Shown here one piece after another: positions 6,109 through 19,144 of a DNA stretch of 22,747 bases. Each line of letters starts with the position of its first letter. Positions within the stretch are counted from its first letter, which is position 1. The stretch lies in the IMG/VR virus record IMGVR_UViG_3300044627_005127, positions 1-22,747 of that record, one strand, 5' to 3'. The DNA comes from a virus. The position numbers and the translations under genes were made by a program. The notes beneath the pieces were generated by a model. The model made no database searches and was not told the origin of the DNA. It saw only the letters and a list, made by a program, of their open reading frames with translations.

Positions 6109-9100
6109 ATGAGCGAGATCAATTTATTTTATTTAAAAAATGCAAGATTGTTGAGCAGCACCAATCCTGACCTACAAGCATTTCTTCTCAACAACGAAGA
6201 TCAAAGGGATCCAGATACCGGATCCGCATTTGTTGTTGGTCTGGAAATAGAAGAGAGCATGTTCTCGCCTACAATTACAGGAAAGGCAACTCTCCGTGAT
6301 TATGCAATGAACGGAGCATATCAAGATGTTGTTCTTAAAAATTTAGGTCTCGGTGGATACGATATTTTAGAGATGACATTCGAAACAGATGACGTTGCGA
6401 ATGGATTGTCAATACCAGATGGCAGCAAAAAAGCATATAAATTTCAATTTTTGATTTATGCATATAGTCAAGAAACAAGTGAAACATATTCATTGTACTC
6501 TGGGAGTCCCGTTCCGAGGGTAGTTGTCCTGAAACTGGCTTCTCCAGAATTTGCAGTGATGAATTATCTTTATTTTGATTATTTCAATCAAAGTGAAGAT
6601 ATGATAATGCCTATTTCGAGAATAGGAGAGGGAATTCCGGGAGATGTCATAATACAACAGCCTTCTCCACCACTTTCTTCGGACAATGAAAACACGACTC
6701 CAATCGTTGTTGTAGATGAAACATCACAATCATTGACGGATGAAGGTGGTGTGTCCAGCGAAGGAGAAGAAGATGATTTCATTCCGGGACCCACTCCAAT
6801 TACAACTGGAATGGGTCAAGATTATCAAGGAATGGGAATGGTTCAATATTTGGTGGATGAGGTAAACAAAGAACTTAAAAAGAAAAAATTGCCGGGCGTT
6901 CCTCTTTTGTCCGAAAATACCATGAATTGGATTTGGTTGAAAAAGGATTATAATTTTTATCCATGGGGTAAGATGGCATCCCCACCAAGATTCAATCAGT
7001 TGGTACAGACCCTGACTGAAAATGCAGTTCATGAAAAATGGGATACAGGAAATGTCAGAGCAGCTAATTTCTTCTTTTGGAGAACAATGGATTCTTGGAA
7101 TTTCTTTTCCTTGGAATCATTGGTGCAAAGGGAACCAACAAGAGAATATTTGCTAAGTCCGGACATGAATCAAGCAGAATCGATTCATAATTTGACTACG
7201 ATGAATGTCTCTGAAGGTTTATTGAAGTCTTCTGATGAAACCGACAATTTAGCCCTTTTGAATTCTTATGCGTTTGGATCAAATTATCTTTTTGTCGAGC
7301 CTAAGTATGTCGATGATCCTTATGGCAGATATCTTGACACACAAAAGGGCCATATCATATCGGAGATTAAATACGATTATCTTCGGGATGGAATATATTG
7401 GTCTCGTTTGAAACAACCAGATGAAGTGAAAAATTTTATATCAAAAGGATTGAATTTCAATTCTTGGAATGACGAATATGCAAAAGAATTTTCAAGCAAA
7501 ATTTCTCAAAATAGAATCATAGACAAAAATTATGGTTACTTTTCTCCGGGATTCTTCAATAAACAAAAAACAGTTCCTTGGGAATATTATGGTTATGAAC
7601 ATTCATCTAGACAAGAAGATACTCTTTGGCAAACTCAATTTGACATAACAGATCTGGATGCAGAACGCTTAAGATGGTTCCAGAAAGAAATAAAGAAGTA
7701 TGTTAAGAAAAAGAAACTTGAATATGCAGCCAAGAAAAATCTAAAAGAAAAATGGAAAGTTTATAAATGTTCAATATGCTGTGCTGGTGCCGACATCGGA
7801 ATAACGGCATATAATGGATTGCCATTTTCAGGATTCACTGATCTTAAGTTTCAAAAATCTTTTGATTTGAGAGACAATCTTCTTTCAAATTATGAGATTG
7901 CTGCTGCAGGAGCATTCAGTGACACTTTGAATTACAATTCAAAACTAAAAGGAGTTTTCCAGCCTTTTGGTGATGGAACTCTCACTGATACTGGGTTGAC
8001 ACTAAGTTATGATTTGAACAAAAAACCTTACAATATGAGTCTTGGTGAATTTTTCAGTCTTGAAAAAAATCCAGACAATTTCGTCAAATATAGGTTTGAT
8101 CTTGAAATCACTAGACACGAAAAATTAAAAGAAATTCTTTTGAAAAATAAAGAAGCAAGAGAAATAAGAAAAGAAAAATATACAGAATCAGTCAACGCAT
8201 ATGATCAAGCTTATCAGTCTAGAAACTCAAATTGCAACACCGCAGGTTGTACTGGAAATTGTTTATGTCCTACGGAATATCCAGAAACAGTAATAATCAA
8301 AAGCGATCTTGTGAAAGGTGCTCATGATTCTTTGATTGGCCATGAAGATAAGATACTTCAGCAAATAGATCCGATCATCGATAAGCTGACAAAATTAAAA
8401 GAAGAATTTGAACTTCTTTATGACAAATATTGGTCAAGAAAGGCTTTCTTCTTTTCAAGAAACATAAATTTTCCAAAATTCTTGAAAACAGAAAACAATC
8501 TTTTGAATGTCAAGAGCATAACTCGGAAGCCTATACGAGGAAGCAAATATGAGCCATTTGCTCTTCGAAAGCCAGTTGAAAACTTGAATAAGATGATTCC
8601 TGCTATCACAGGATCACCAGACATCGGGTCTTATCCGGTCGGGAGTCCGGGAACATCACCCCTGTGGCCAAGATCAGGGGATGGTTCAACTTGCATGTAT
8701 CCTTATGATGTACCCGGCGATGTCAATGCATTGGGCACAAAGAACGCTACGAGCACGGCAACAACTCCAGTATGTGGCACAACTAGCGGTGTTTATTACA
8801 TGAGGACATATGGTCCTTCTGGAGATGGTATAAGTGGAAATCCATCTGCAGATTTTTGGTCATCGTTCAGTAGCCCATATGCAAATTTCCCCTATTCGGA
8901 AGCTGGGGAAGAAAGACCAAAAGGTCCGATTTGGTACAGAAACTGGTTGATTTCTTATGAAATCACTTTGATAAAACCCCCATGTTTGAACAGAAAGCCT
9001 CCTTGTTTCACTGGCGATTGCAGTTGCGATGAGATCAAATTGAATCTTAACATGCATTTTGAGACTTTTGCAAATTATAAAGATGCAGATATCTTGACCA

Positions 9101-11364
9101 ATTCTACACAAATTGTCGATTATGCATTTACCGAATTGTCGAAGAATTGTGATGGTTGCAAGATAAGAATTCTCAGTGGTTTGCCTGCATCAGAAATCGA
9201 GTTGTATCACCCATGGGGTGCAGATGATTTATCTGGTCTTGGACCTAGTGGATTTGGTTATGAAGATTATAAAAATTACAAAAGATCCGCGAGTTTGTTC
9301 AGAACAAATCCGGGTATAACCTTACCGGAATATAAAGCAGCAAATAGCAAAGATGATCCAAGATTCCCACCACACTTAGTATTGGAGGGTCTAGAAAGTT
9401 ATGTAAGAGTAGAATTCATGACTCCTATCGGCGTTGAATCCTTGAAGGATTTTCCGGAAGGATTCATTGATACCCATGGAAGTGAATACTTCTTGCCATA
9501 TATCGTTCTTGCGACAGCAGGTCCTTTTGGGTCACAAGCGGCAAGAGCAAATATATCAGTCATCGGACAAGATCCATTTGGATTTGATTTAGCTGTAAAG
9601 AAGATAAAAAACAAAGATGACTTTGCAGGAATGAATCTGGTATTTACCAAAGATGAAACTGGAGATATACGAGACCCTTATACCAATAATCTTTATGTTG
9701 ATCCTCGTACTCCTTTCTCGACTTCATCTTCTTGGCTCAAAACCTCACAGAATTCCTTGTTCTATAAACCAAAAGATGGAGTCGCCGATTTATTTGTTCC
9801 AAATGGAGTACAAGATATTTTCAAGGCATCCGCTCTGGAAAGAAGCATTCCCGTCAAAACATGGTGGGATATGTGGGTATCTTTACCTCCTGTTGCCGTT
9901 GCCACTTTCTACAACAGATATAATGTGAAGGGAGTGACCCAAGAAGAAGGACCAACGCTAGGTGGTCCCGGAGTTGCTTTTTATAACAATGGATCATTGG
10001 TTGCAGAGCCTTACGCTTGGACTGGAGGATGTACAGGGCAAGTAAATCAGTCTTGTGCTCAAGATCCACCTTGGCCTCTGTTCTTACATCCGGATACGGA
10101 GCAGATTATCACAGGTGCATTTGCTTCCAATACGGCGGTTATTCCCACTTCCGAAATTTTCCAAACAGCAGAATTCGTCACCGGTCCTGCCGGAACCACT
10201 ACATTTATTCCGGGCAAAACCGCAGGAATTCTACCAAGCGATCCATCAAACTATGTGTATAGAATAGCAGATTTCCCACACATAATAGGAGACACTACCA
10301 CCGGAATTTCCGGTCCACAGAAAAAACAATATGATACTATATCCTATCCTGTCGGGACTTTGATCTGGGGTAAAGATTTACCCCCGGTACAATCGGTCCA
10401 AGGAGAAAACGGCAATTTTCTTTTCTACGATCACAATTATGTTAATTATTATGATATCTCAAGAAAAACACAATATGGTCTTGTTCAACTCAGTTCAGAC
10501 TCTATGCCTTCGCTTTTGACTCTTATAAATGGGGTTGGTGGCGAAATAGAAAAGATACAAGAATACCATAAATGGGTATCTGATAAACTTGTAGATTGGT
10601 TCCAAAATACAATATTTGATAATAATTTTTCGGCACAATTCGTGGTGTTGTCTAGGCAAGAAGGATGCAAGGGATATCCTTGCATGAATCCAGATGGGTT
10701 CCCGGGAATAGATGGTTGTCCAGCAGATAATCCTTTATGTAAATGTCCTTGCCAAGGTAATGGTCAACCACTATCAACATATGTTTCCCCGGGTGGTCAA
10801 ATGCCAGATGATGTTGTACTGAGACCAGACTTGATGGACATGGTTGACGATAGATTCGTCGGGGTGACATTTGCTCCAACCGGTGGATGGGGATTGGAAC
10901 CGTCTTCGTTGGAATTGAAACTTTTAGAAAAAGAAATAAACGAATGTAATATAATCAAAGCACACCCGAGATTTGGAGATACTTGGCTGGGTTGTGTGTG
11001 GGACGATCCTACCAGCGATTATAACTGTAATTGTCCAAATATAGGCAAGAATTTCCCGATTTACATGATGTACAACAGAACCCATTCAACTTTCTGGAGC
11101 ACTCCCCTCGAAGCCCCGCTCTATAGAACTGCGCAGATGGCTTTATTTAATGCCAATAAGATAACTATTGATGTTCCCGGAGATTTTTATGTCGTGACTG
11201 GTGATGTGGTGAAAATAAATGCTTCTCGCCTAAATGGTGGGGCAAAGAGATTTGCTGGGAATTGGATTGTAAGCAGTATAAATCACTTTTTTATGAGCAA
11301 TGTTCATACTATGAGAATGGTTCTTTCTAGAGAATTGCCGCACCCGAATCCAGAGGGAAAATAA
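6109..11364 (+). CDS. 27: Giant gp27-like baseplate central hub protein with Cys-rich insertions
   Basis: 1751 residues, over four times T4 gp27 (391), which forms the trimeric centre of the baseplate. The ends look gp27-like: residues 1-155 (SPTITGKATLRDYAM, then YDILEMTFETDD, then ASPEFAVMNYLYFDY), about 240-345 (VQYLVDEVNKEL, then DSWNFFSLESLVQRE), and the last 100 residues (ITIDVPGDFYVVTGDVVKIN, then WIVSSINHFF and MRMVLSRELPH). An acidic Ser/Pro linker (about 182-228) splits the N-terminal domains. The middle, roughly 400-1640, is unlike T4 and includes three charged helical stretches (about 508-550, 662-705 and 736-781) and several Cys clusters. No lysozyme or other catalytic motif was seen. 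It starts without a clear Shine-Dalgarno and precedes gp25 directly. Confidence 0.7.
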   Translation: MSEINLFYLKNARLLSSTNPDLQAFLLNNEDQRDPDTGSAFVVGLEIEESMFSPTITGKATLRDYAMNGAYQDVVLKNLGLGGYDILEMTFETDDVANGLSIPDGSKKAYKFQFLIYAYSQETSETYSLYSGSPVPRVVVLKLASPEFAVMNYLYFDYFNQSEDMIMPISRIGEGIPGDVIIQQPSPPLSSDNENTTPIVVVDETSQSLTDEGGVSSEGEEDDFIPGPTPITTGMGQDYQGMGMVQYLVDEVNKELKKKKLPGVPLLSENTMNWIWLKKDYNFYPWGKMASPPRFNQLVQTLTENAVHEKWDTGNVRAANFFFWRTMDSWNFFSLESLVQREPTREYLLSPDMNQAESIHNLTTMNVSEGLLKSSDETDNLALLNSYAFGSNYLFVEPKYVDDPYGRYLDTQKGHIISEIKYDYLRDGIYWSRLKQPDEVKNFISKGLNFNSWNDEYAKEFSSKISQNRIIDKNYGYFSPGFFNKQKTVPWEYYGYEHSSRQEDTLWQTQFDITDLDAERLRWFQKEIKKYVKKKKLEYAAKKNLKEKWKVYKCSICCAGADIGITAYNGLPFSGFTDLKFQKSFDLRDNLLSNYEIAAAGAFSDTLNYNSKLKGVFQPFGDGTLTDTGLTLSYDLNKKPYNMSLGEFFSLEKNPDNFVKYRFDLEITRHEKLKEILLKNKEAREIRKEKYTESVNAYDQAYQSRNSNCNTAGCTGNCLCPTEYPETVIIKSDLVKGAHDSLIGHEDKILQQIDPIIDKLTKLKEEFELLYDKYWSRKAFFFSRNINFPKFLKTENNLLNVKSITRKPIRGSKYEPFALRKPVENLNKMIPAITGSPDIGSYPVGSPGTSPLWPRSGDGSTCMYPYDVPGDVNALGTKNATSTATTPVCGTTSGVYYMRTYGPSGDGISGNPSADFWSSFSSPYANFPYSEAGEERPKGPIWYRNWLISYEITLIKPPCLNRKPPCFTGDCSCDEIKLNLNMHFETFANYKDADILTNSTQIVDYAFTELSKNCDGCKIRILSGLPASEIELYHPWGADDLSGLGPSGFGYEDYKNYKRSASLFRTNPGITLPEYKAANSKDDPRFPPHLVLEGLESYVRVEFMTPIGVESLKDFPEGFIDTHGSEYFLPYIVLATAGPFGSQAARANISVIGQDPFGFDLAVKKIKNKDDFAGMNLVFTKDETGDIRDPYTNNLYVDPRTPFSTSSSWLKTSQNSLFYKPKDGVADLFVPNGVQDIFKASALERSIPVKTWWDMWVSLPPVAVATFYNRYNVKGVTQEEGPTLGGPGVAFYNNGSLVAEPYAWTGGCTGQVNQSCAQDPPWPLFLHPDTEQIITGAFASNTAVIPTSEIFQTAEFVTGPAGTTTFIPGKTAGILPSDPSNYVYRIADFPHIIGDTTTGISGPQKKQYDTISYPVGTLIWGKDLPPVQSVQGENGNFLFYDHNYVNYYDISRKTQYGLVQLSSDSMPSLLTLINGVGGEIEKIQEYHKWVSDKLVDWFQNTIFDNNFSAQFVVLSRQEGCKGYPCMNPDGFPGIDGCPADNPLCKCPCQGNGQPLSTYVSPGGQMPDDVVLRPDLMDMVDDRFVGVTFAPTGGWGLEPSSLELKLLEKEINECNIIKAHPRFGDTWLGCVWDDPTSDYNCNCPNIGKNFPIYMMYNRTHSTFWSTPLEAPLYRTAQMALFNANKITIDVPGDFYVVTGDVVKINASRLNGGAKRFAGNWIVSSINHFFMSNVHTMRMVLSRELPHPNPEGK

Positions 11365-11365
11365 G

Positions 11366-11767
11366 ATGACCAGTTTTAGGCCCAATTTAATAAACTACAA
11401 AGACTTTGATTTTGATTTTAATAAAAACGAAATAACAAAAGATGTCAAAGCCAGATTGGGACTGTCATGCATTTCACAATCTCTGAAAAATATAATTTTA
11501 ACTTCTCCGGGAGAAAGACCATTTTCTGAGATGGGGATTGAGATATACAGGTCCATAAATGAAAATGCTACCGGAGATCGCTTGGTTTTCATGAAAAATC
11601 AGATATTATCAGCAATTGGGCAAAGAGAGCCCAGAGTTAAAGTGGAATATAATGATGTGGATATTGTTAGGGAAAATGGTGGGAAAATTTCAATAAATAT
11701 TAGATATGCTATAGTAGACGGATTGGGTGTGGATTCGATACAAAACTTAAACTTATCCATTGAATAA
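11366..11767 (+). CDS. 25: Baseplate wedge protein gp25
   Basis: 133 residues, matching T4 gp25 (132). gp25 is the wedge component from which sheath assembly starts; the family is shared with contractile injection systems. The signature REPRV is present at about residues 92-96 (the EPR motif of gpW/gp25 proteins), preceded by the family pattern TSPGERPFSEMGIEIY. The ATG begins one base after the stop of the hub gene, with AGAGGGAAAA inside the hub 3' end as ribosome site. gp6 follows after eight bases, giving the conserved gp25-gp6 pair. Confidence 0.95.
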   Translation: MTSFRPNLINYKDFDFDFNKNEITKDVKARLGLSCISQSLKNIILTSPGERPFSEMGIEIYRSINENATGDRLVFMKNQILSAIGQREPRVKVEYNDVDIVRENGGKISINIRYAIVDGLGVDSIQNLNLSIE

Positions 11768-11775
11768 GAGGAAAA

Positions 11776-13539
11776 ATGGCAGCTAACGACATAACCATAT
11801 CAGACTTGACCTTTGAGGGTATAAAAAAATCTCTCATTGAGTATCTGAAAAAACAAGAAACTTTCAAAGATTATAATTTTGAAGGTTCGGCTATTCGCAC
11901 TCTAGTTGATCTCTTGGCATATAACACTTTTTATTATGGTTATTATTCAAATATGATTGCTAATGAGATGTTTTTGGATACAGCCAAACTTCAAAATTCG
12001 ATGATATCATTGACCAAACCCCTTGGTTATGTAATTCACAATTATCTTTCAGCCAAAAGCACTTTAAGACTGAATAATATTACTTCTATAAACAGTGAAT
12101 TGTCCGCTTTTTCCTCCTTTCGAGGAAATGATCCTGCTGGTAGGCCATATTATTTTTATAACATAAGGTCGATACCGGTCGGGGCAAACGAAGATTTGCC
12201 GGGATCATATAGAACTCCATTTTTCGAGGTGTATGAAGGAAAGGCTTTGGTAAGAAGACAATTAGTGAATGTTGATCTTAATACTCAAACTTTCTCATTG
12301 CCAGATCTTTTTATAGATCCCAGAACAATAACGATCGAAGTCGGCGATGTGAATGGCAAAAATTTAACTGTCTGGAATAGCTATTATTTAAATCCAGATA
12401 CAGTAATAGGATCTGAAACTGAAATATTTTTTACAGAAAGAACAAAAAACGGATACAACATAAATTTCGGAAAATTTACATCTAACGATGTTGGCGGACA
12501 AAGCAATGGAAAACAGATCACCGGAGAAGATACTGTATATGTTTCATATTTGATTTCATCCGGTGCTGATGGAAATGGTGTAGCAAATATAACTTTCCTC
12601 AGAGATGCGGAGGGAAAGTCCATAAAGAAAGAAACGACAGTCACCGAAGTTTCTATTGCTTCTAGAAATGGAACCTCTTCTCCAGATTTAGATGAAATAC
12701 GTTTCTTTGCTCCAAAGACATTTGCGAGCCAAAATAGAATAGTTACCAAAAATGATTACTACTCTGTTTTAAATAGTCTTGGTTATGGTTCGGGTTCAAG
12801 TCCAGAATTTGGCTATAAGGTATTTGGTGGAGAAGAAGCCACTCCTCCTATTTATGGAAGAGTCTTTGTTAGTATAATGGATCTAAATCCGGGTGATGCT
12901 AAAGACTACAGCAAACAAAATGAAATAAATGAAGTTCTTTCTGTTTTGAAAGATAAATCTGTGGTTAGTATTTTACCAGAATATTTGGCACCTTTTGATG
13001 TGAATATGAAATTAATTGTGGTAACAAATCACAGAAATGTAAGGAGTGCGGGTACAGTCGGAGAAATCGTCGTTGCTGTCAGGAATGCACTCCGTGCAGA
13101 ATATGGGACTAAAAAATATGACCGAAATGTTCAGGAATTAGATATATCTCAAATAGCCAGAGATGCATATCCGGGTCTGAATATTGTATCGGTTTTCTTG
13201 GAAATTAGGGCAATAAGTCCACAAGTCTCGGATAAGCAAGGAAGAAAAATAAATCTTAAAAATCCAATAGAAAGTTTGGAAATAACTGGATTTGAAGATT
13301 CAACTCAAGTAGCTCGAAATGCAGAAAAATACATTTATCTCTATAAAGATAAATCATTAGTCTCAGACATGCCAGTCGGAGAATTGGACACCGAAAATGG
13401 AATAATAACCATATATCCAAACATAACAGCAAATCGATTAATAATAAGTGTAAAAGTCCCAAAGAATGTTTTCATCGCGAAAGATGAAATTGTTTGTTAT
13501 CTAGATGCAGATAATGACTTGACAATAACGGTAGTATAA
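11776..13539 (+). CDS. 6: Baseplate wedge protein gp6
   Basis: 587 residues (T4 gp6 is 660). gp6 dimers form the continuous ring that ties the baseplate wedges together. The N-terminal hallmark is clear: FKDYNFEGSAIRTLVDLLAYN, then SNMIANEMFLDTA, followed by KPLGYV. The central part is beta-rich, and the C-terminal half shows the gpJ-like pattern (NRIVTKNDYYSVL near residue 325, then GRVFVSIMDLNP, then the NALRAEYGTKKY region). The start is preceded by TAAGAGGAAAA, which combines the gp25 stop and a strong ribosome site. Its stop overlaps the next start as TAATG. Confidence 0.93.
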   Translation: MAANDITISDLTFEGIKKSLIEYLKKQETFKDYNFEGSAIRTLVDLLAYNTFYYGYYSNMIANEMFLDTAKLQNSMISLTKPLGYVIHNYLSAKSTLRLNNITSINSELSAFSSFRGNDPAGRPYYFYNIRSIPVGANEDLPGSYRTPFFEVYEGKALVRRQLVNVDLNTQTFSLPDLFIDPRTITIEVGDVNGKNLTVWNSYYLNPDTVIGSETEIFFTERTKNGYNINFGKFTSNDVGGQSNGKQITGEDTVYVSYLISSGADGNGVANITFLRDAEGKSIKKETTVTEVSIASRNGTSSPDLDEIRFFAPKTFASQNRIVTKNDYYSVLNSLGYGSGSSPEFGYKVFGGEEATPPIYGRVFVSIMDLNPGDAKDYSKQNEINEVLSVLKDKSVVSILPEYLAPFDVNMKLIVVTNHRNVRSAGTVGEIVVAVRNALRAEYGTKKYDRNVQELDISQIARDAYPGLNIVSVFLEIRAISPQVSDKQGRKINLKNPIESLEITGFEDSTQVARNAEKYIYLYKDKSLVSDMPVGELDTENGIITIYPNITANRLIISVKVPKNVFIAKDEIVCYLDADNDLTITVV

Positions 13540-14744
13540 TGTTTTTATTGCTAAAGCAATCCCCTTCTTTAACAGCAAAAGGCTTGTATCAAAACATGCA
13601 AGCCAGTATAGAATTTGCGTTAAATAACAGAAAAATCAATTTCAATCCCATTCAAGTCAATACCCAAGTTCCTCAATGGCTTAATGATAATCATCCGATT
13701 TTTGTAAACTTTCTTCAATATTATTATGATTGGTTGGTCGATTCTTATGGAAACACTGGGACGAATCTCATGGATATGTCCCAATTGTTTGACGTAGATG
13801 AAGCTCCGGAATTCCTTCTTCCGAATTACATAAGAACTTATGCTCCAGATCTCATAGGAATCTATGACATTGGGATAACTTATCAACCAACACCAGAACA
13901 AATAAGAAGAACAATAACCAATATAAAAACTGAACTGTACCAAAGAAAATCAAACGAAGATGCATTCAGGACATTGATGCCATCGTTATTCGGAATAAGT
14001 GCAGATACGGTAAAAATCAGCTATCCAAAAAGAAAATTGATGCGTTTGAACGCAGGCAGATTAGATTGGATGACTAATAGTGATTATTATGGAATCACTG
14101 GGGAATATTCGCCCGAAAGATACACGATGGTCGGAAGTCATTTGAATCAAGGGGTGTTTCCTGATAGCGGAATGTGGCAAGAATTTTCTTACTTGCTAAC
14201 ATCAGAGGTCGATGATTCCAATCCATATTATGAAGCTGTTGTCAAGGAAACTTTACATCCAGCGGGTCTCTTGGGACTATATGAAAAAATCGAAAAATAT
14301 TCTGAAGGTGGATACGAGTCTCCAATTCCGATAGACTATGAAGTTCCTCTGATAGCGAATTATTATCCATATACTCTAGGTTCTCAGATCTCGTTATCCA
14401 AATGCTCTGGTTGCACCGGGGCTCTTTCAGCAGCAGGGTGGTTATATCCGACTTATGTTTATCCGTCTTGGGACGTTGAAATTGCGGGTGGTCAATCTGC
14501 TGATTTTGGATCTATAATCTTACAAGACTTTTTTGTGCTAAATTCTTTCCCCGGAAAATTATCTCCAAATGATCAAATAGGAAATGCATGCAATTTTGCT
14601 TGTGGTGTATCTGGAGAAATAAATTTCGAATGGTATGTTGGTGTTGGTTTAACTTCAGATATTCCCTATGTTGAGTTCATAGAACCGGGACCGATTTCAG
14701 AAAAAGAACCTACAGATTTGATTGAACTTCCAGAAGAAGGATAA
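13539..14744 (+). CDS. Baseplate wedge-associated structural protein (gp7/gp10-type initiator region)
   Basis: 401 residues. The N-terminal part resembles a protein type found after gp6 in T4-like marine phages: PQWLNDNHPIFVNFLQYYYD (about 46-65), NYIRTYAPDLI, then RRTITNIKTELYQRKSNEDAF (about 126-146) and VKISYPKRKLMRLNAG. I connect this with wedge initiator proteins such as gp7/gp10, but the match is from memory of pattern, not from a search. The C-terminal third is unrecognised, holds paired cysteines (KCSGCTG and CNFACG), and ends in an acidic Pro-rich tail. It overlaps gp6 by one base (TAATG) and leads directly into the spike gene, so it may link wedge and spike. Confidence 0.5.
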   Translation: MFLLLKQSPSLTAKGLYQNMQASIEFALNNRKINFNPIQVNTQVPQWLNDNHPIFVNFLQYYYDWLVDSYGNTGTNLMDMSQLFDVDEAPEFLLPNYIRTYAPDLIGIYDIGITYQPTPEQIRRTITNIKTELYQRKSNEDAFRTLMPSLFGISADTVKISYPKRKLMRLNAGRLDWMTNSDYYGITGEYSPERYTMVGSHLNQGVFPDSGMWQEFSYLLTSEVDDSNPYYEAVVKETLHPAGLLGLYEKIEKYSEGGYESPIPIDYEVPLIANYYPYTLGSQISLSKCSGCTGALSAAGWLYPTYVYPSWDVEIAGGQSADFGSIILQDFFVLNSFPGKLSPNDQIGNACNFACGVSGEINFEWYVGVGLTSDIPYVEFIEPGPISEKEPTDLIELPEEG

Positions 14745-14753
14745 GAGGAAAAA

Positions 14754-17700
14754 ATGCTTTTTGAATCAGGCATAACAATTTTTAGGGTAAATCAACAGAT
14801 ATTGATAGAAAATACCAGTGACCCCGGATTTGACAAATGTTTATTGTACAGCATTCAGGGAAATTATCAAATTCTTCTATTAGATAGTTTTGTAATAGGA
14901 ACAACATATTCATATGCATATGGATCAGAAGGCCAAAGAGTAATAAAAATAATAGGAGAAAAAGAAAGAGAAGATTCGAAATTTTATTCGGAAAAAGGAA
15001 TCACTGTAAACATTGGATATGCTCCAACTGATGTTCTTTTGTTTAGCAGAAGAGAAGATCAATCTTCTGAATATGATTTTAATTATGTTCAGCAAGGAAT
15101 TTGTTTTGAAATAAACAGATTTCAATCAATAACTGGAACATCTCCATTGACATATTCTTGGAATTATGGTGGAGCTGTAACTTTTTCAAACACTATAAAC
15201 CCAGTTCAAACTCTAAAATTTGATGCTCTTGGTTATAAATTTGTCGGCGTAACAGTAAGTAATTTATTCGGAACAACCTTTTCCAATCTTGAGTTTGTTA
15301 CCATAAATTCACCTATTTTGGGAATAACTTCAACTCCTAGTTTCGGTAATGTTCGCACGGGTGAAACTTTGATTGTGGATACGCAATTTGTTCAACAAAA
15401 CGGTCACACACAAAGAGATATTGCTTATAGATGGAACATCAATGGTGTTACATATTCAACTAGCCGAATAACACTGAATTATGATCTAGGAATAACAGTC
15501 GGGGTTACTCTTTCGTATTTCAGTAGAATTTTTAACGGATTTTCTGGAAGCACATTTGGAACTTATGCAGTGTCTGATGTTCCGGGTATTTACTCAATAC
15601 ATGTTTCAAACTCCTTGGGTAATGATTCTTGGGCAGGAAAAACATCAGGTATTTTTGGAACCGATGGACCAGTAAGAACATTGACCAAAGCAGCGGAATT
15701 GGCTAGGGGGTATAGCGGTCCTCTAGATATTGACATAAAAATTGCCGGTGGAACTTATCAATTTATCGAGCAATCTTTCTATCTAACCGGTCCTGACAGC
15801 GGGGTCAATAGGACAATAACATATAAACCATTAATAAGCGGAGCTAAAGTCATCATAAGTGGTGGATATACTGTATCACCATCACTTTTTACCTTAGTAA
15901 CAGCCGGGAATACGTTAATTTATGATAGACTTAAACCTTCTGCACAAGGAAATGTGTATCAGGCAGATGTTTCGATGATGGGAATTTCCTTCGGAACGAC
16001 TTTACCCAATACTTGGAATGGAAGAGCAGTACAAAATAAATATCTGCCCTCCATACCAGAACTGTTTTTTGACAATGAAAAAATGACTGTTGCCAGATGG
16101 CCCAATAAATCATCGTCATCTTCTGACTCTTCCGATCCATTTGGGTATACATCGATGGCATATATTGAATCTGTTGTGAATTCCGGTTCAAGTTCAACGA
16201 GACCCCCTCTTGGTCTGACAAATGGTGTTTTCAAATACGAATCGAGTGTTTCATCCGTTATAAACAGATGGAATGCTACAGGACCGACAGAATATGATGG
16301 AATATGGTTGTTTGGGTTCTGGCAGTGGGATTGGAGTGATGATGTATATCAAATTAAATCTATAAACAAAATCACCCGAGAAATAGAAGTATACTCATCA
16401 ACATCCTCGTATGGAATATTGAAAAATATTCCCTGTTCAAGTCCGGGAAATCCTTTTGCATATGCAAATCCAACTAATAGAAGATTCTTCGCATTCAATA
16501 TCCTTGAAGAGCTTGACTCTCCGGGTGAATATTTCTTGGACAGAAAGAATAAGAAACTTTATTTCTGGCCCCCATATACAATCGGAGCAACCAGTAATGT
16601 CGTTTTGAGTTCAATACAACTGGCAGGGGATCAATCTTGGATTCCGGGAACTCCAAAATATGCAGACAGTGTATTGCAAATGCAAAGCAATTTGAACACT
16701 TTAGGTGTAAATGCATCAATTTTTAAATTTTATAAACTTAAAAATGTTGTTTTTGATGGTCTTGAATTCTATCATATGTCGGGATCTGCAATCCAGATGG
16801 ATCTTTGTGAAAATGTACAGATAAAGAATTGCAAGATACATTCTCCGAGAAAGAATGGAATAGTCATAGTTGGAGGAAAAAATAACATTATAGATTCATG
16901 TGAAATTTATAATTCTGGTCTCAATGCGGTTATAATAGGTGCTGGTGATAGAAGAAATCTAATCCCTGCAAATAATGTGTTACAAAATTCAAGATTGATT
17001 GGTTCTGGAAAAAACAGTTCGAACTACGGTGGGGGTTTAGCTTTACTCGGAGTTGGAAATATTGTTAGAAAAAATATAATTGCCAATTCTTGCTCAAAGG
17101 CAATTATGTTGCACGGAAACGATCATATAATTGAATATAACAATTTTAGTTATTTGACCAGCGCTCAAGATGATACGGGTGGAATCTATGTTGCAAACAA
17201 CGTTTCTGACAGAAACACAACCATACGATACAATTTGTTTAACAATGTGAAGACAAACCTTCCGGGAGGACCGGCTTATAGTGGAACTCTTCCGGCAGGG
17301 GGGTGTCCAAGTCCTCCAATCAAAACCGCACTTTCTTGTGGTATTTACATAGACGAATTCAATTGTGGAGTTAACATTCTTTCAAATGTTTTTTACAATT
17401 GCGGTGCGACTTCTGGTGATACAGATGGTGCAATTTTTATAACTCATGGTCTGGACCATCTAGTCAAAAACAACATAATAATAGATTCAAATTGTGGTAT
17501 AGGCCATTGGTACTCGAATAGAGAATTATGGAATACCAACGGTAAAGCATTTAAAAGTGGAAATTCAAATATTGGTGTCGGTGCTTTGCAGCAAATAATA
17601 AATGTCGGAGATGAGCCTTGGTATGAAGATGGATCTCCAAGCAGTCTTCCCGGACCTGCTGTTTTATTCGGTGGCAGAAACTATACACCATATTCTTTCT

Positions 17701-18122
17701 TTGCTTCCGGATATGGGAGAGAAGGAACATGGGTTTCCACTAAAGGATTGTTGAACAAAGTCGATGTCACTGGAACAACTTGGACAAACAAATATCCACA
17801 ACTAGCCGGTGAAGATGGCATGATTCGATATGATCCGGAAAATTATCTTGTGACTTTTAATCAAAGGTATCCAATGAAAAATTATCTTATAGATAATGTA
17901 TTTGTTAATGTTGGAGCGAACGCAAGAATAACACAACAACAATCTTCTGGCTTGAGTGGATCCACATTTGAAATTGGAAATTATTTCAATTATAATAATT
18001 ATGACATATTTGTGGATAAAAATTCATTGAATTTTAAATTGACAGAAAGAGGGCTGAATTTAATTCGCGGTGATGTTCCCGACTTCGCAGACATACCATT
18101 TGAAGAAATACCTGTATTATAA
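14754..18122 (+). CDS. Tailspike/adhesin with Ig/PKD-like domains and a GH141-like beta-helix glycoside hydrolase
   Basis: 1122 residues. Residues 1-90 are a small beta-rich region, probably for virion attachment. About 95-190 and 191-275 look like two Ig/PKD-like domains (TGTSPLTYSWNYGG; AYRWNINGVTYSTSR). From about 282 to the end the pattern is that of family GH141, right-handed parallel beta-helix enzymes acting on fucosylated or xylan glycans: IHVSNSLGNDSWAGKTSG, GGTYQF, a segment ending VARWPNKS, and the hallmark NILEELDSPGEYFLDRKNKKL at about 582-602, followed by LYFWPP. Then come helix turns with GNDHIIEYN, DDTGGIY (D806-D807) and GIYIDEF (D867), and the C-terminal IFVDKNSLNFKL. GH141 enzymes are thought to use paired Asp residues, for which D807 and D867 are candidates. 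The gene ends the baseplate operon; a TAAGAGGAAAAA signal precedes it and a terminator follows. Confidence 0.75.
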   Translation: MLFESGITIFRVNQQILIENTSDPGFDKCLLYSIQGNYQILLLDSFVIGTTYSYAYGSEGQRVIKIIGEKEREDSKFYSEKGITVNIGYAPTDVLLFSRREDQSSEYDFNYVQQGICFEINRFQSITGTSPLTYSWNYGGAVTFSNTINPVQTLKFDALGYKFVGVTVSNLFGTTFSNLEFVTINSPILGITSTPSFGNVRTGETLIVDTQFVQQNGHTQRDIAYRWNINGVTYSTSRITLNYDLGITVGVTLSYFSRIFNGFSGSTFGTYAVSDVPGIYSIHVSNSLGNDSWAGKTSGIFGTDGPVRTLTKAAELARGYSGPLDIDIKIAGGTYQFIEQSFYLTGPDSGVNRTITYKPLISGAKVIISGGYTVSPSLFTLVTAGNTLIYDRLKPSAQGNVYQADVSMMGISFGTTLPNTWNGRAVQNKYLPSIPELFFDNEKMTVARWPNKSSSSSDSSDPFGYTSMAYIESVVNSGSSSTRPPLGLTNGVFKYESSVSSVINRWNATGPTEYDGIWLFGFWQWDWSDDVYQIKSINKITREIEVYSSTSSYGILKNIPCSSPGNPFAYANPTNRRFFAFNILEELDSPGEYFLDRKNKKLYFWPPYTIGATSNVVLSSIQLAGDQSWIPGTPKYADSVLQMQSNLNTLGVNASIFKFYKLKNVVFDGLEFYHMSGSAIQMDLCENVQIKNCKIHSPRKNGIVIVGGKNNIIDSCEIYNSGLNAVIIGAGDRRNLIPANNVLQNSRLIGSGKNSSNYGGGLALLGVGNIVRKNIIANSCSKAIMLHGNDHIIEYNNFSYLTSAQDDTGGIYVANNVSDRNTTIRYNLFNNVKTNLPGGPAYSGTLPAGGCPSPPIKTALSCGIYIDEFNCGVNILSNVFYNCGATSGDTDGAIFITHGLDHLVKNNIIIDSNCGIGHWYSNRELWNTNGKAFKSGNSNIGVGALQQIINVGDEPWYEDGSPSSLPGPAVLFGGRNYTPYSFFASGYGREGTWVSTKGLLNKVDVTGTTWTNKYPQLAGEDGMIRYDPENYLVTFNQRYPMKNYLIDNVFVNVGANARITQQQSSGLSGSTFEIGNYFNYNNYDIFVDKNSLNFKLTERGLNLIRGDVPDFADIPFEEIPVL

Positions 18123-18124
18123 AG

Positions 18125-18155
18125 AAAAACCCCGCCTTGCGGCGGGGTTTTTTTT
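18125..18155 (+). terminator. Strong intrinsic terminator, likely bidirectional
   Basis: CCCCGCC (18130-18136) pairs with GGCGGGG (18141-18147) around the loop TTGC, extended by five A-T pairs, and is followed by eight T residues (18148-18155). It begins three bases after the spike stop. The five A residues on the 5' side give a shorter U tract for transcripts coming from the minus strand, so it probably stops both convergent operons. Confidence 0.95.
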
Positions 18156-18175: not shown

Positions 18176-18301
18176 TTACTTATTCCAAGGAAGCTTAGCG
18201 TTGACCCATTTCCAGAGAGCAGGACCGATTGCGGCACCTGCAGCGAAAACGAGGGCGGTATAGAAAAACTTACCGAGAGTGTCTGCGAAGAAAAAGTCCA
18301 T
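18176..18301 (-). CDS. Small single-span membrane protein, 41 residues
   Basis: The frame runs from ATG 18301-18299 to TAA 18178-18176. The protein starts MDFFFADTLGKFFYTALVF and ends NAKLPWNK. Residues about 11-30 form one hydrophobic, Ala/Gly-rich helix (KFFYTALVFAAGAAIGPALW), with an acidic N-terminus and a basic C-terminus. AAAAGGAGC with five-base spacing is among the best ribosome sites in the window and overlaps the stop of the upstream 276-residue gene. It uses many C-ending codons. Small single-helix proteins in phages include holins, antiholins, lysis regulators and inner-membrane effectors. Which applies is not shown by the sequence; no lysis gene was recognised nearby. It sits between a virion-type gene and the terminator. 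Confidence 0.75.
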   Translation of the reverse strand: MDFFFADTLGKFFYTALVFAAGAAIGPALWKWVNAKLPWNK

Positions 18302-18313
18302 ATCTTGCTCCTT

Positions 18314-19144
18314 TTATGATCTCTTGTATCTAAGAGTTCTGGTTATCTTGTCGTATTCTCTCTCAAGACCGGCTGGGCGGAGATTCTGAATCACGGAAGT
18401 GTAAGTGAAACCATCTGCTGTTTGACCCATTGCATTGGTGATGGGGGATTTGGTTGGAATATTTACAACCGCTTGTTCTTTGGTTGCCTTTGTAGAGAAA
18501 ATGACTGATCCTACGTTCGAGGGACCGTTCATTTCAATTTTTCCGACACCAAACCCAGCAGTGGCTGCAGTGAAGAATGTGACTCCTCGGATGCCTTGGA
18601 ATCCTTCAATCAAAATATTTTCTGCAGTCAAAGATTTAGTCTTCAGAGAACCTCTTTCGACTTCTATTTCTGTCCATTCACCAGATGCAAAGAATGTCGC
18701 GGTTTGACCGTCCATCAATGCAATTGAATATGCACTTGCCGGAATGTTGTTGATTGAAATTTCTGCATTATTCTTGTCTGTTCCGATAAAAAGTTTATTG
18801 ACTTTGAGATTCAATCCGCCGGTGATTGATCCGAAAGAATAACCAAGTTGAGTCAGATCTGTGGTATTGGGTAGAGTAGCTCCGTATCCACGCTCTACAA
18901 AAACAGTCATATCAGTTGCTGCATCGGCATCTCCAGAATTATAACCAATCCAGACACCTCCAGACAAACCCCCAACTAAACAACATGCAATTGCCGTTGC
19001 TCCGAAAATAACGGTGTCTCCTCCTTTAGGGAAAACTGTTGCCGGAACACTGGAAGTCAGTGAAGTACGCCAATTTGCGGTATTTCCCCATTCGTAACCA
19101 GTTGGACCGACTGCAGTAAGACCTCTCCAGAAATAAGTAGCCAT
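18314..19144 (-). CDS. Beta-rich probable virion protein
   Basis: 276 residues, not recognised with certainty. The opening MATYFWRGLTAVGP, then EWGNTANW, resembles the Trp-rich start seen in repetitive beta-solenoid or adhesin-like virion proteins (aromatic-W-R-G, then G-N-x-x-N-W). The rest is Gly, Thr and Ala-rich with short alternating strands and no catalytic motif. Adjacent Cys residues occur in ATAIACCLVGG. There is no signal peptide. A good ribosome site AAGGAG lies eight bases before the ATG, and a CATAAATA element just upstream resembles the T4 late promoter TATAAATA. Together these suggest late, strong expression of a structural or decoration protein. The 41-residue membrane protein gene follows, coupled through its ribosome site. 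Confidence 0.65.
   Translation of the reverse strand: MATYFWRGLTAVGPTGYEWGNTANWRTSLTSSVPATVFPKGGDTVIFGATAIACCLVGGLSGGVWIGYNSGDADAATDMTVFVERGYGATLPNTTDLTQLGYSFGSITGGLNLKVNKLFIGTDKNNAEISINNIPASAYSIALMDGQTATFFASGEWTEIEVERGSLKTKSLTAENILIEGFQGIRGVTFFTAATAGFGVGKIEMNGPSNVGSVIFSTKATKEQAVVNIPTKSPITNAMGQTADGFTYTSVIQNLRPAGLEREYDKITRTLRYKRS

Follow-up and report, generated by a model that had tools for sequence, protein, structure and literature searches.

Results

The spike gene and its anchor

The IMG/VR virus record IMGVR_UViG_3300044627_005127 is a metagenomic fragment of 22,747 bases, which as a whole is called the window here, and the gene under study is the last one of its baseplate run (14754..18122, + strand, with its ATG at 14754 and its stop at 18122). 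This spike gene encodes a protein of 1122 amino acids (aa) predicted to consist of an N-terminal anchor and a GH141-like module, and we consider it quite probable that the product is a baseplate-attached receptor-binding or depolymerase protein of a T4-like phage, with the GH141-like module as its catalytic part. The T4-like baseplate genes occupy the + strand from about 4.4 to 18.1 kb of the window and comprise, in order, a tube-cap-like open reading frame (ORF; a weak match, E 0.0019), a gp53-like wedge gene, the gene of a 1751-aa tail protein, a gp25-like wedge gene (11366..11767, +; Pfam and PHROGs searches), a gp6-like wedge gene (11776..13539, +; Pfam and PHROGs matches), a wedge gene of 401 aa (13539..14744, +) and, directly downstream of it, the spike gene. 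The 401-aa product is assigned by PHROG baseplate wedge matches, its Pfam Baseplate_wedge match of 25.1 bits being below the cut-off of 27. The stop of this wedge gene lies 10 bases upstream of the spike ATG, with the AG-rich sequence AAGAGG just 5' of the latter, and the operon is closed by a bidirectional terminator-like hairpin at 18125..18152. The spike protein begins MLFESGITIF, and by eye a signal peptide is not evident.

The initial annotation had the GH141-like part attached to Ig/PKD-like domains and the gene closing a baseplate operon, which agrees with the wedge-type genes upstream, with an anchor common to a second contig (L171) and with PKD domains in a homologue on a third (L064). 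The anchor (residues 1-280, 14754..15593, +) shares 38% identity with residues 1-281 of the L171 spike, and the homologous stretch of L064 matches PKD domains at E 1.2e-10, above the Pfam cut-off, and an Ig domain under this threshold. In residues 1-288 of the spike itself no Pfam family was found, and pieces searched separately gave PKD_2 at E 0.13 only; a single-sequence fold of the same residues has a predicted local distance difference test (pLDDT) score of 31. A pattern-based search with the N-terminus recovered no relative in 7 candidate stretches, a false negative since a homologue was later found by way of the wedge gene. A PADLOC scan gave no match. As a side observation, L064:10798-12864 encodes a 689-aa wedge protein with the spike anchor domain fused at its C-terminus, and the next ORF begins inside a PKD domain.

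The GH141-like module

The last approximately 840 residues had been annotated as following the full GH141 layout, and both the profile and the structure searches place this domain with GH141, through PDB entry 5MQP (BT1002), and not in a non-enzymatic beta-helix family, the outcome named beforehand as speaking against that layout. The motifs stand where they had been reported (VSNSLGNDSWAGKTSG from residue 284, EELDSPGEYFLDR from 585, LYFWPP from 602 and IFVDKNSLNFKL from 1085), and Asp occupies both position 807 and position 867. The module spans residues 279-1122 (15588..18119, +), delimited by a profile match, an AlphaFold model and the structural match to 5MQP. A GH141-like profile matches the spike protein at 667 bits over profile positions 37-700 of 708 and residues 272-1120, the window being itself one of the profile's 30 rows; independently of the profile, pairwise relatives of the C-terminal domain reach E 2e-137 to 5e-76, and therefore the domain match is not due to chance. 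Against solved structures the 30-row profile gives 266.9 bits for 9rx2, 115.2 bits (E 2.3e-32) for 5MQP and 32.5 bits for the xylosidase 3vst, which we take to be a GH120 enzyme. The best of these, 9rx2, is entered as 'Parallel beta-helix repeat protein' and has Asp in both of the candidate catalytic columns discussed below; a search for a paper under this code found none, and the protein is not known from virions.

The relatives come from several scans. Two scans of IMG/VR, with 5 and 110 pattern matches, yielded 1 and 4 relatives respectively with one contig common to both, giving four phage contigs whose proteins are 34-42% identical to the spike domain, and the scan of GTDB contigs gave 54 bacterial loci among 161 pattern matches. 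Alignment A3 took 25 of these 54 loci with all 4 viral loci then known, and alignment A4 left out 2 of A3's 25 bacterial rows.

The AlphaFold model, built from a 28-row alignment, is mostly confident at residues 278 to about 922 and 1020 to 1117. Its top Foldseek match is 5MQP at E 4e-19, the next entry being at 2e-5. The superposition on the characterised fucosidase that had been proposed as a check makes 5MQP the top match of VIA-align as well, with Z 26.9 and a root-mean-square deviation of 2.8 over 494 of 600 residues (model range 279-1122), at a sequence identity of 19%, and the next entry has Z 24.1 over 321 residues. The other 49 structural matches listed cover 268-399 residues; the coverage by 5MQP is far above theirs, and therefore generic beta-helices match mainly the helix, whereas 5MQP matches the helix and the insertion. 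In fact a parallel beta-helix with a beta-sandwich insertion, a trait of GH141, is present in the model, with the insertion equivalent at about residues 376-610 (15879..16583, +; limits by eye) ending in ELDSPGEY...LYFWPP and recognised by the GH141_M match, the model strands and the 5MQP superposition. We are fairly sure that the C-terminal domain has a GH141-like fold.

Several observations weigh against a GH141-type spike. The GH141_M match of the spike protein alone reaches 22 bits with a cut-off of 27 and covers residues 567-606, that is 40 of 156 positions, and a single-sequence search with the spike protein did not find 5MQP at E <= 1. The mean pLDDT of the model is 65.7, with residues 1-204 and 929-1001 below 50. 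As the module reaches residue 1120 of 1122, the spike shows no trimerisation or chaperone domain at its C-terminus. Known bacterial relatives likewise stay under the GH141_M cut-off (22.8 and 23.1 bits). Besides GH141_M, Pfam finds Beta_helix at E 5e-12, and the direct scans of the spike protein in Pfam, NCBIfam and PHROGs gave weak or generic matches only; those to an NCBIfam galacturonidase (16 bits, cut-off 800) and a rhamnogalacturonidase (13 bits, cut-off 650) were dismissed as generic beta-helix similarity. The viral structure library BFVD returned generic beta-helix proteins only (best E 6e-7), with no viral GH141-like fold apparent.

The module might instead belong to another group of beta-helix enzymes, for example GH120, the PL6 lyases or the mannuronan epimerases, and merely resemble GH141, since many such enzymes superpose at Z 20-24 and 3vst gains its 32.5 profile bits. 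However, the shorter coverage of these entries, the 115.2 profile bits of 5MQP and the alignment of the BT1002 catalytic pair with invariant Asp residues leave this explanation with very little probability.

The candidate catalytic pair

In BT1002 the essential pair is D523/D564, proposed as nucleophile and acid/base (PMC10154630), and in Xyn141E it is D540/D577 (PMC5593877). The pair was mapped onto the window through the BT1002 orthologue L162 (5MQP match at E 3.6e-265), because a beta-helix-only profile (A5) did not reach 5MQP. The Asp pair of L162 stands at 513/554, 41 residues apart like D523/D564, and aligns with D807 and D867 of the window in all three MAFFT modes. The initial annotation had put forward just these two residues as candidate catalytic acids, and the alignment with the BT1002 pair bears this out; we are fairly sure of the equivalence, by which the codon of D807 (17172..17174, +) would encode the nucleophile and that of D867 (17352..17354, +) the acid/base.

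Both residues are invariant in the 30-row alignment. A wider count rests on 9 rows from phages and 49 from bacteria, all covering 440 profile positions or more; excluded were L012 (two copies), L141 (which repeats L140 in gene layout and scores), L149-L151, L153 and L154. In this count Asp occupies the D807 column of 9/9 phage and 48/49 bacterial rows (the remaining one has Glu) and the D867 column of every row of both sets (9/9 and 49/49). Further invariant columns are those of E794, N796, N878 and N907. The spacing between the two Asp residues is 52-75 in the phage rows and 36-59 in the bacterial rows, with 60 in the window, and the loop between them (about residues 838-860, 17265..17333, +), which has low pLDDT at 839-857, is longer in the phage rows than in most bacterial rows.

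It is conceivable on these data that the fold is catalytically dead and that the protein is a glycan-binding adhesin only, a receptor-binding tail protein. The lengthened loop fits such a loss, as does E868, which sits where more than 90% of the rows have Asp and thereby also tells against an active enzyme, and the structurally similar beta-helices include the adhesin PfbA. However, both Asp residues are kept in all nine phage rows, although the other phage rows have only about 40% identity to the window, and the four further invariant columns point the same way, so that a dead adhesin appears unlikely, if clearly less so than another enzyme group.

Compared with known systems, BT1002, the GH141 alpha-L-fucosidase of Bacteroides thetaiotaomicron, has the same beta-helix with a beta-sandwich insertion and the aligned Asp pair; unlike this bacterial enzyme, the window module has a longer inter-Asp loop and sits on a protein of a phage baseplate operon. 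The xylanase Xyn141E (Cthe_2195) and the Wf141 endo-fucanases, which we liken to it by description, share the family fold and the Asp pair as reported (PMC5593877, PMC12786026), but are bacterial and polymer-degrading. The specificities of characterised GH141 enzymes vary widely (PMC12786026), and for this reason the substrate of the phage module is not predictable.

Exchange of the module in syntenic contigs

Contig L171 repeats the order of the window, with a 1751-like gene, gp25, gp6, the wedge gene (63% identity), a spike gene, the 41-aa ORF (90%), the 276-aa ORF (58%) and the reductase (92%). The spike of L171 (L171:7196-9568) has 791 aa and resembles the window spike in the anchor only, with the match ending at most 2 residues from the start of the GH141-like module. 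Its remaining 511 aa match neither the giant proteins tested (see below) nor any other fetched locus and have no convincing relative by sequence in Pfam or the PDB, and the whole protein found nothing better than E 0.15 among solved chains. Thus the conserved anchor carries an exchangeable C-terminal module, of which L171 is the one example. L061 and L062 represent the empty site, where the wedge gene runs straight, without a spike, into the same terminator and the 41-aa ORF (DNA identity 77% in this part), and their reductase is about 94-95% identical to that of the window. The 41-aa ORF (18176..18301, -), which forms the right edge of the slot, is conserved at 85-90% identity in L061, L062 and L171. 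The swap in L171 gives independent support to the tailspike reading, and we are reasonably sure that the spike gene product is a tail protein.

These contigs bear on two further explanations. The gene might encode an auxiliary metabolic glycosidase that the infected cell produces to release sugars and that has no part in the virion, in keeping with the characterised GH141 members, which are bacterial polymer-degrading enzymes (PMC10154630, PMC5593877, PMC12786026). Such enzymes have so far been described in degraders of plant and algal polymers. However, its position inside a baseplate operon, the lack of an evident signal peptide and the different module that the anchor carries in the same slot of L171 make this improbable, to nearly the same degree as a foreign beta-helix group. 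The least probable explanation, to which we give hardly any weight, is that the gene came onto a phage contig by misassembly or as bacterial contamination, as could befall a metagenomic virus fragment of this length: the independent contigs L171, L061 and L062 contain matches to the anchor half, flanks and terminator region, L060 contains one to the left flank, and the GH141-like half falls within a phage clade alongside other tail-operon contigs. As a separate observation, the last approximately 48 bases of L060 open an ORF that by eye resembles the N-terminus of the window spike.

Phage distribution and origin of the module

Nine phage rows carry the module, in five sequence groups, namely the window, L002/L004, L003/L005/L140, L142/L144 and L148, so that besides the window there are at least four T4-like contig lineages with it. 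The gene context is mostly alike: in L003, L005, L140-L142 and L144 the module gene comes right after gp25/gp6/wedge-like genes, in L004 it follows gp6/wedge-like genes at the contig edge, in L002 it adjoins a homologue of the gene that follows in L005, and in L148 the gene after it matches tail and tail-spike PHROGs. In these contigs (L002, L003-L005, L140-L142, L144 and L148) the same phage-clade module is part of giant baseplate-operon proteins, single frames of about 2200-3560 aa, unlike the compact 1122 aa of the window; as to these lengths, the frame of L003 is broken (1032 + 2496 aa), L002 and L004 end at contig ends, and L140 and L141 at the end of the fetched stretch. The giant ORFs of L004, L005 and L148, up to 3556 aa, are multi-module, with RCC1 repeats in L004 and L148 and GH85_C and fn3 in L148.

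In a quick tree of 64 rows the nine phage rows form one clade with an SH-aLRT support of 100. A careful tree with its root on the BT1002 side was built from 34 rows, namely 5 of the 9 phage rows together with 25 from bacteria and 4 from the side of BT1002. It puts the five phage rows in a 100/100 clade nested in bacteria and beside two Hydrogenedentota rows (95/92), with the window branching first within this clade. As the phage rows thus lie inside the diversity of bacterial GH141-like proteins, the module probably entered phages in one event, with a bacterial GH141-like enzyme as the source of the whole clade; this is the simplest reading, and the tree is no proof of it. BT1002 is distant, across a 100/100 branch from the window module, and this weighs against the reading of the spike proposed here.

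Several candidates were set aside. MT835657.1 (L154, 'Bacteriophage sp.'), the sole match in a phage collection, looks by eye like a fragment of a bacterial polysaccharide-degradation locus, with a GH29-like ORF beside the GH141-like one, and has a bacterial placement in the tree, so that its phage label is probably wrong; three queries of this collection, which has 50,697 records, gave no convincing phage match to the module. L149 and L150 of IMG/VR fall among bacterial rows in the tree and hence were not counted as phage. Moreover, L153:6803-8800 encodes a distant GH141-like protein of 666 aa on an IMG/VR contig of 478,840 bases, with a very long branch and six neighbours without a PHROG match, and L012, a protein from Hydrogenedentes with a length of 1545 aa, contains two GH141-like domains in tandem.

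Proposed function

Beta-helical phage tailspikes are modular, with an anchor and a catalytic part, and glycosidases and lyases have long been known among them. The right-handed beta-helix at the tail end is shared with tailspikes and depolymerases such as those of P22, Sf6, phi29 gp12, CBA120 TSPs and LKA1 gp49, several of which are among the structural matches; the phage matches listed cover fewer than 340 residues of the window model, compared with 494 for 5MQP. The device would hence be a known one, a beta-helical tailspike depolymerase, and the catalytic family new for it. Literature searches outside subscription papers and preprints listed no paper on a phage GH141.

The fold, the Asp pair, the operon position, the C-terminal module swap on a shared anchor and the phage clade of the module were computed here. 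Judging by synteny and the conserved anchor, the Ig/PKD-like residues 1-280 would hold the spike to the baseplate beside the wedge protein encoded upstream, and the GH141-like right-handed beta-helix with its beta-sandwich insertion would cleave a glycan of the host surface during adsorption, with D807 acting as nucleophile and D867 as acid/base. Here the virion location, the catalysis and the surface-glycan substrate are what we infer, and of the catalytic activity of the module we are less sure than of its place on the tail. A broader proposal, to which we would give an even chance, is that of a phage-domesticated GH141 branch, acquired once from bacteria and spread in T4-like phages, in the form of a compact spike as well as within giant baseplate-operon proteins, with its own lengthened active-site loop and acting on a bacterial surface glycan not known to be cut by any characterised GH141 enzyme.

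Phage depolymerases reveal the surface sugars of their hosts and are sought as tools for cutting particular glycans. With a GH141-type domain, phage tails would draw on a wider range of catalytic families, and GH141, so far characterised on pectin, xylan and fucoidan, would gain a likely new substrate class. Moreover, a shared anchor with differing C-terminal modules, together with the empty site in close relatives, offers a natural system for the exchange of host recognition in T4-like phages.

Neighbouring genes

Beyond the hairpin, the opposite strand carries the 41-aa ORF, a 276-aa ORF, a ribonucleotide reductase of 640 aa and a 250-aa ORF, which we take to be ThyX. The 276-aa ORF (window 18314-19144, -) has no PHROG match; it is present in L171 and missing from L061 and L062, where the reductase gene stands directly after the 41-aa ORF. 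In the baseplate run, the 1751-aa protein (window 6109-11364, +) matches the tail-protein family phrog_350 at its C-terminus, and in distant relatives, for example L070, the matches to it are split over two ORFs of 975 and 311 aa. The hints to the host point in two directions: gp32 is closest to cyanophages (about 58%) and NrdJ to alphaproteobacterial phages (about 65%).

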